From contig NZ_JAQUWN010000007.1 of NCBI RefSeq assembly GCF_028692895.1, positions 20,819-84,818 on the forward strand: 64,000 nt of DNA, written 5' to 3'. Source of the stretch: Pseudodesulfovibrio sp. GTDB lineage: Bacteria > Desulfobacterota > Desulfovibrionia > Desulfovibrionales > Desulfovibrionaceae. A program made the translations under genes and the position numbers. Positions 62,995 to 64,000 of the stretch are shown piece after piece (position 1 is the stretch's first letter; the number at the start of each line of letters is the position of its first letter). Under the pieces are notes generated by a model. That model was not told where the DNA came from, ran no database searches, and saw only the letters and a list, made by a program, of their open reading frames with translations.

Positions 62995-63417
62995 ATGGCC
63001 AATACTCTGAAGCTTGAGATTGTCACCCCTGATCGGAAAGTGCTTTCCGAGGAAGTGGAATACGTGGGTGCCCCCGGCATCCTCGGCGAATTCGGCGTGC
63101 TGCCGAAACACGTCCCGTTCCTTTCCGCTCTGGGTGTGGGCAACCTCCACTACAAGCAAAACGGCAAGGCGTACTATGTGTTCGTCGCCGGTGGCTTCGC
63201 CGAAGTCAGCAACGACCAGGTGACCATCCTGGCCGAGGTTGCCGAGAAGGCCACGGAGATCGACACCGACCGCGCCTCGAAAGCCAAGGCCCGCGCCGAA
63301 GAGCGTGCGACCAAGGCCAAGGAGAGGATCGACGGAGCCCGCAACCAGGCTGCCTTGCGCCGGGCCATCTCCCGGATCAACTGCAAGACCAGCGGCAAGA
63401 ACGCCGGCACCTGCTAG
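62995..63417 (+). CDS. atpC: ATP synthase F1 subunit epsilon
   Basis: 140 residues, ATG 62995. The N-terminal beta-sandwich has the family start [46 protein letters not shown], and the C-terminal pair of helices is rich in Arg/Lys/Ala ([20 protein letters not shown]). Epsilon binds gamma and limits ATP hydrolysis. Last gene of the operon, followed by a terminator after about 25 nt. Confidence 0.97.
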
Positions 63418-63440
63418 ATCACATCCGCATCCTGATACCA

Positions 63441-63471
63441 AAGGGCGAACCCGCAAGGGTTCGCCCTTTTT
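63441..63471 (+). terminator. Rho-independent terminator of the ATP synthase operon
   Basis: Perfect 12-bp stem AAGGGCGAACCC/GGGTTCGCCCTT with GCAA loop, followed by TTT. It ends the atp operon and marks the change to A/T-rich sequence to the right. Confidence 0.95.
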
Positions 63472-63537
63472 CTATGAAATTTGCCGTGATTTCAGGACAA
63501 GGCGGATGACAAGGCCAAGTTAAGGCGGAGGATAAAA

Positions 63538-64000
63538 ATGTTAGATGACTTATTGCCGATTTTTGCTACAGGCATTTTTACATTGGCAGGATTTTGGCTC
63601 TCGGCATACATCGAAGCTAAAAAGAATAAGCAGCAACTTTTACAAATTGTTTTTAAAAAGCGTATTGAAGTATATACCGCGTTGGTAGAAATGACACATG
63701 AGACACTGTTGGTGGCGTTGGTTAAAAACTCCAATCAAGATGTCATGAGTGGTGGCGTAAGTATATTGAATAAATTTGGTGGCTGTGCTCTCTTCGCAAG
63801 TAATGAAGTTAGTGAGGTGGCGGTAACGTATGGAACAACTGCCGCCAATAGTGAAATTGAGTTCGAAGAAAAGAAAAATGAGTTGGCAAGTCTTCATGGA
63901 AAACTTCGTACATTATGCCAGCAAGAAATTGGAATGGAAGACCTTCAATGTGAACTATCAAAAAATGACAATGGATCTTTTCTAGATTTCAAAAGGTTTG
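63538..64000 (+). CDS. A/T-rich ORF of unknown function, running off the right edge (not in ORF track)
   Basis: Open from ATG 63538 to the window end (154 codons, no stop), with GGAGG 6 nt upstream. It is absent from the supplied track, presumably because it has no stop inside the window. The N-terminus has a hydrophobic segment (LLPIFATGIFTLAGFWLSAYI, residues about 5-25), so one membrane anchor, followed by a charged, probably helical region (EAKKNKQQLLQIVFKKRIEVYTALVEM) and later FEEKKNELASLHGKLRTLCQQEIG. I recognise no family. The base composition is far lower in G+C than every gene to the left, and codons such as TTA, AAT and ATA are common, which suggests acquisition from elsewhere. Membrane-anchored helical proteins of this look are common in accessory islands, but no function can be given. 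Confidence 0.7.
   Translation, partial: MLDDLLPIFATGIFTLAGFWLSAYIEAKKNKQQLLQIVFKKRIEVYTALVEMTHETLLVALVKNSNQDVMSGGVSILNKFGGCALFASNEVSEVAVTYGTTAANSEIEFEEKKNELASLHGKLRTLCQQEIGMEDLQCELSKNDNGSFLDFKRF

Follow-up and report, generated by a model that had tools for sequence, protein, structure and literature searches.

The 3' end of the atp operon

The window (the whole stretch of 64,000 nucleotides that was analysed) ends shortly behind the atp operon of a Pseudodesulfovibrio strain, in A/T-rich DNA that contains the beginning of a single reading frame, here called the orphan ORF. The sequence continues on contig C67, where positions are given as L003 coordinates. The site comprises the following features:

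62995..63417, plus strand: atpC, ATP synthase epsilon subunit, last gene of the atp operon (assigned from its reading frame and gene order)
63440..63472, plus strand: intrinsic terminator of the atp operon (inverted repeat AAAGGGCGAACCC at 63440 and 63457, with T tail)
63473..63537, plus strand: spacer of 45% G+C with two AAGGCGGA words, the second being part of a ribosome-binding site
63538..64000, plus strand: orphan ORF, first 154 of 158 codons, 37% G+C, with a hydrophobic N-terminal segment; the rest lies at L003:1-141 (C67)
L003:202-1407: complete IS481-family insertion sequence of 1206 bp, 60 bp past the orphan ORF on C67
L003:1429-1451: stem of the tyrS terminator, shortly past the target duplication of the insertion sequence
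L003:1479-2759, minus strand: tyrS
L003:5733-5915, minus strand: 6S RNA (SsrS), RF00013 (Rfam, 103.6 bits), adjoining rny

The preliminary description of this DNA had reported a sharp change in composition past the atp terminator, and this was confirmed. The G+C content is 62-70% before the end of the atpC terminator and about 40% past position 63472. When the 64 kb were scanned in 500-bp windows, the lowest values were those of the last ones (0.406 at 63451), and every 500-bp window clear of the A/T-rich edge had a G+C content of at least 0.54. The AtpC protein is 73-89% identical to its counterparts in genus relatives. The terminator hairpin occupies 63440-63469, with the T tail beyond, and the relatives listed have a comparable hairpin 3' of atpC. 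The two AAGGCGGA copies that had been pointed out directly ahead of the ORF are present at 63499-63506 and 63522-63529, yet they are weak evidence, since the window contains the word 10 times (both strands counted) and the second copy lies within the ribosome-binding site. As to an RNA element at the junction, the one match was to suhB; it overlaps the terminator and scored 17.4 bits, below the threshold of 41.

The orphan reading frame and the contig join

The orphan ORF starts with the ATG at 63538; a GGAGG lies six bases upstream of it, and no stop codon occurs before the edge of the window. This agrees with the earlier description, which had noted a good ribosome-binding site and an ORF that runs off the edge. 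The end of the window coincides with the end of contig C125 in a draft assembly of 132 contigs. Contig C67 starts with the identical 127 bases, and the join of C125 to C67 is based on this overlap of two contig ends together with the continuing reading frame. That the contigs break at a common 127-mer means that the assembly graph is to some degree ambiguous here. The two contigs might not really be adjacent, if the overlap were a repeat collapsed during assembly or the A/T-rich end an assembly artefact, and the fact that both terminate exactly at the shared 127 bases in so fragmented a draft would fit such a view. The shared sequence, however, was found nowhere else in the assembly, the reading frame runs on to a stop four codons into the C67 continuation, completing a protein of 158 residues, and the lower G+C content persists for 74 bp into C67 as far as the insertion sequence. 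We consider non-adjacency of the contigs very improbable.

The longest stop-free frame here spans 174 codons. When the A/T-rich DNA was shuffled 5000 times with dinucleotides preserved, 11 shuffles reached this length; the frame is therefore unlikely to have arisen by chance. Its G+C content at the three codon positions is 47/31/35%, compared with 62/43/82% in atpC and 64/39/91% in tyrS. The protein has a single hydrophobic segment near the N-terminus (about residues 5-25), which from its sequence is probably a membrane helix, and is mostly polar towards the C-terminus. AlphaFold2, run on the single sequence, gave a mean pLDDT of 48.6, a value at which a fold search would not be meaningful.

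No relatives of the orphan ORF were found in 36 genomes of the genus (its own included), in 297 genomes of the order or in 395 drawn from the phylum, and none among 50,697 phage records and 72,556 plasmids. A short-pattern search of viral contigs and GTDB genomes, in which only close relatives are detectable, was equally negative. Pfam, PADLOC and PDB gave no match, the lack of a PADLOC match also speaking against a known anti-phage defence family, and the matches in NCBIfam and PHROGs were weak and not credible. Assignment to a defence or phage family was rejected, as the profile libraries gave no credible match. Identity with TraD was rejected as well: the similarity (E = 0.002; 17 bits, where the cut-off is 521) covers a stretch of 60 residues and is regarded as a chance resemblance of a helical segment.

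The atypical G+C content, chiefly at third positions, the absence of a genus relative and the variable flanks of atpC (see below) make a foreign origin of the orphan ORF likely. Alternatively, the ORF could be native to this lineage and have evolved too fast to be recognised; its ribosome-binding site, the coherent layout of its putative membrane protein and the long branch of the source genome would agree with that. But its G+C content at third positions is 35%, whereas core genes have about 80-90%, and no trace of it is present in the 36 genus genomes, which renders a native origin improbable. For the host, the gene is most likely an unimportant passenger, or possibly encodes a lone membrane accessory protein. 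It is very unlikely that the ORF represents an undescribed family of small membrane proteins, sampled only here, that is carried on mobile DNA (e.g., phage-derived or defence-linked) and settles preferentially between convergent operon ends.

The insertion sequence and the return to core genes

The element past the orphan ORF belongs to the IS481 family: its transposase matches NCBIfam NF033577 with 264.5 bits (cut-off 224) and contains rve and HTH domains in Pfam. The terminal inverted repeats of 27 bp (TGTAGTGAGATGG.../TGTACAGAGATAG...) are identical at 21 of 27 positions and start with TGTA, and the element is flanked on each side by the 7-bp target duplication GATTGGT. In its DDE transposase above the curated cut-off, its TGT... 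ends, its length of 1.2 kb and its short target duplication it is like other members of the family, whose duplications range from 2 to 15 bp; it is unlike most of them in that the duplication is 7 bp and not the commonest length of 6 bp (PMC10045372). Among 44 related elements with both ends kept in public genome records, many also have 7-bp duplications. Close relatives with the same ends occur in many Proteobacteria, with copies in records of Nitratidesulfovibrio and Desulfovibrio.

No second full-length copy was found in the source genome, and this result together with the intact 7-bp duplication excludes an inversion mediated by this copy. Since the target duplication is intact, the 3' flank of the orphan gene must already have adjoined the tyrS terminator before the element inserted, and the insertion is the latest event at the site, not the maker of the joint.

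Past the insertion sequence the minus strand carries tyrS, cheR, rny, the 6S RNA gene, glmU and a MATE transporter gene, with mostly normal G+C content (57-68% in the core genes across the next 4.5 kb). The 6S RNA was the only hit when L003 was scanned against Rfam at gathering thresholds. Near its right end (L073:2491-2591), C67 also contains a repeat of about 84-100 bp that is scattered through the assembly: segments of it recur at 15 other places with 73-100% identity, and several of these lie at contig tips (C62, C47, C130, C3, C87, and C74).

The earlier description had suggested that a genomic island may begin at the edge of the window, behind the atp operon. The first part of that suggestion, an insertion of foreign DNA, is likely; the island itself had to be given up, as the atypical stretch extends over about 0.6 kb plus one insertion sequence before core genes resume. 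Reading onward for mobile or defence genes, as had been recommended, led to the one IS481 element and then to housekeeping genes and normal G+C content. No mobile or defence genes other than the transposase were recognised among the genes examined on C67, no integrase, site-specific recombinase or flanking direct repeats were present among the genes examined beside the site, and the longest direct repeats in the spacer before the insertion sequence are 9 bp. A large island of mobile, defence or phage genes would accord with the sharp fall in G+C, the orphan ORF and the adjoining insertion sequence. It is nevertheless a most unlikely explanation, as C67 is back to housekeeping genes of normal G+C less than about 2 kb from atpC and, transposase aside, the genes examined include no integrase, phage or defence gene; this refutation holds only if the join of C125 and C67 is correct. 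With a genomic island the site shares the atypical composition and a transposase close by, but it is far too short and lacks an integrase, flanking direct repeats and a cargo cluster.

Gene order behind atpC in the genus

When the site was compared with relatives, the flank of atpC was found to differ among them, and not to be conserved. At 8 loci of the genus, atpC is followed on the same strand by glmU, rny, cheR, and tyrS. This order is partly retained in three outgroup genomes and is therefore probably ancestral. At 17 loci waaF follows atpC on the opposite strand, and at 7 the neighbours are other genes. In genomes without the ancestral-type order, atpC and tyrS lie 33-885 kb apart wherever a single contig allowed the two positions to be compared. 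A reversed block immediately 3' of atpC was seen in no examined genome other than the source genome. Its waaF (67% identical) lies on a separate contig (C29), and the gene behind it encodes a small membrane protein similar to one encoded between atpC and waaF in another genome of the comparison (G005).

Across the relatives (L036-L071), the 3' flank of atpC is a recurrent synteny breakpoint of the genus. In a tree of AtpC, AtpD, and TyrS the source genome (G000) forms a long, isolated and weakly supported branch close to genomes with other neighbours; the rearrangement therefore has no precise place in the tree, and of the number and order of the changes no more can be said than "several".

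The site consists of a defined order and orientation of genes (given the contig join), a complete ORF for which no relatives were found, a complete insertion sequence with its duplication, and an atpC neighbour that varies within the genus. We consider it probable that it represents a minimal foreign islet at the joint of a chromosomal rearrangement, later struck by an IS481-family element. On this view the reversed tyrS-cheR-rny-glmU block would have come to lie behind the last gene of the atp operon, leaving the terminators of two convergent operons face to face. The joint would hold a short piece of foreign, A/T-rich DNA with one small gene, predicted to encode a single-pass membrane protein; this piece may have arrived from outside by illegitimate recombination, and the orphan gene may be expressed. 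Finally, a single IS481-family insertion between the orphan gene and the tyrS terminator would have duplicated GATTGGT. The convergent terminators would make the spot harmless to both operons, so that such debris may persist.

The site resembles the ORFan islets that occur where synteny breaks between operons: it has a single A/T-rich gene without relatives between convergent operon ends and differs in nothing unusual, the position 3' of atpC being simply one such breakpoint. The whole site is ordinary genome plasticity. The question raised by the edge of the window is settled: given the contig join, the atp operon has no hidden island behind it. The 3' side of atpC emerges as a place of repeated gene-order change within one genus, and the site illustrates on a small scale, through events whose order can be read, how orphan genes and insertion sequences gather at breakpoints at the ends of operons.
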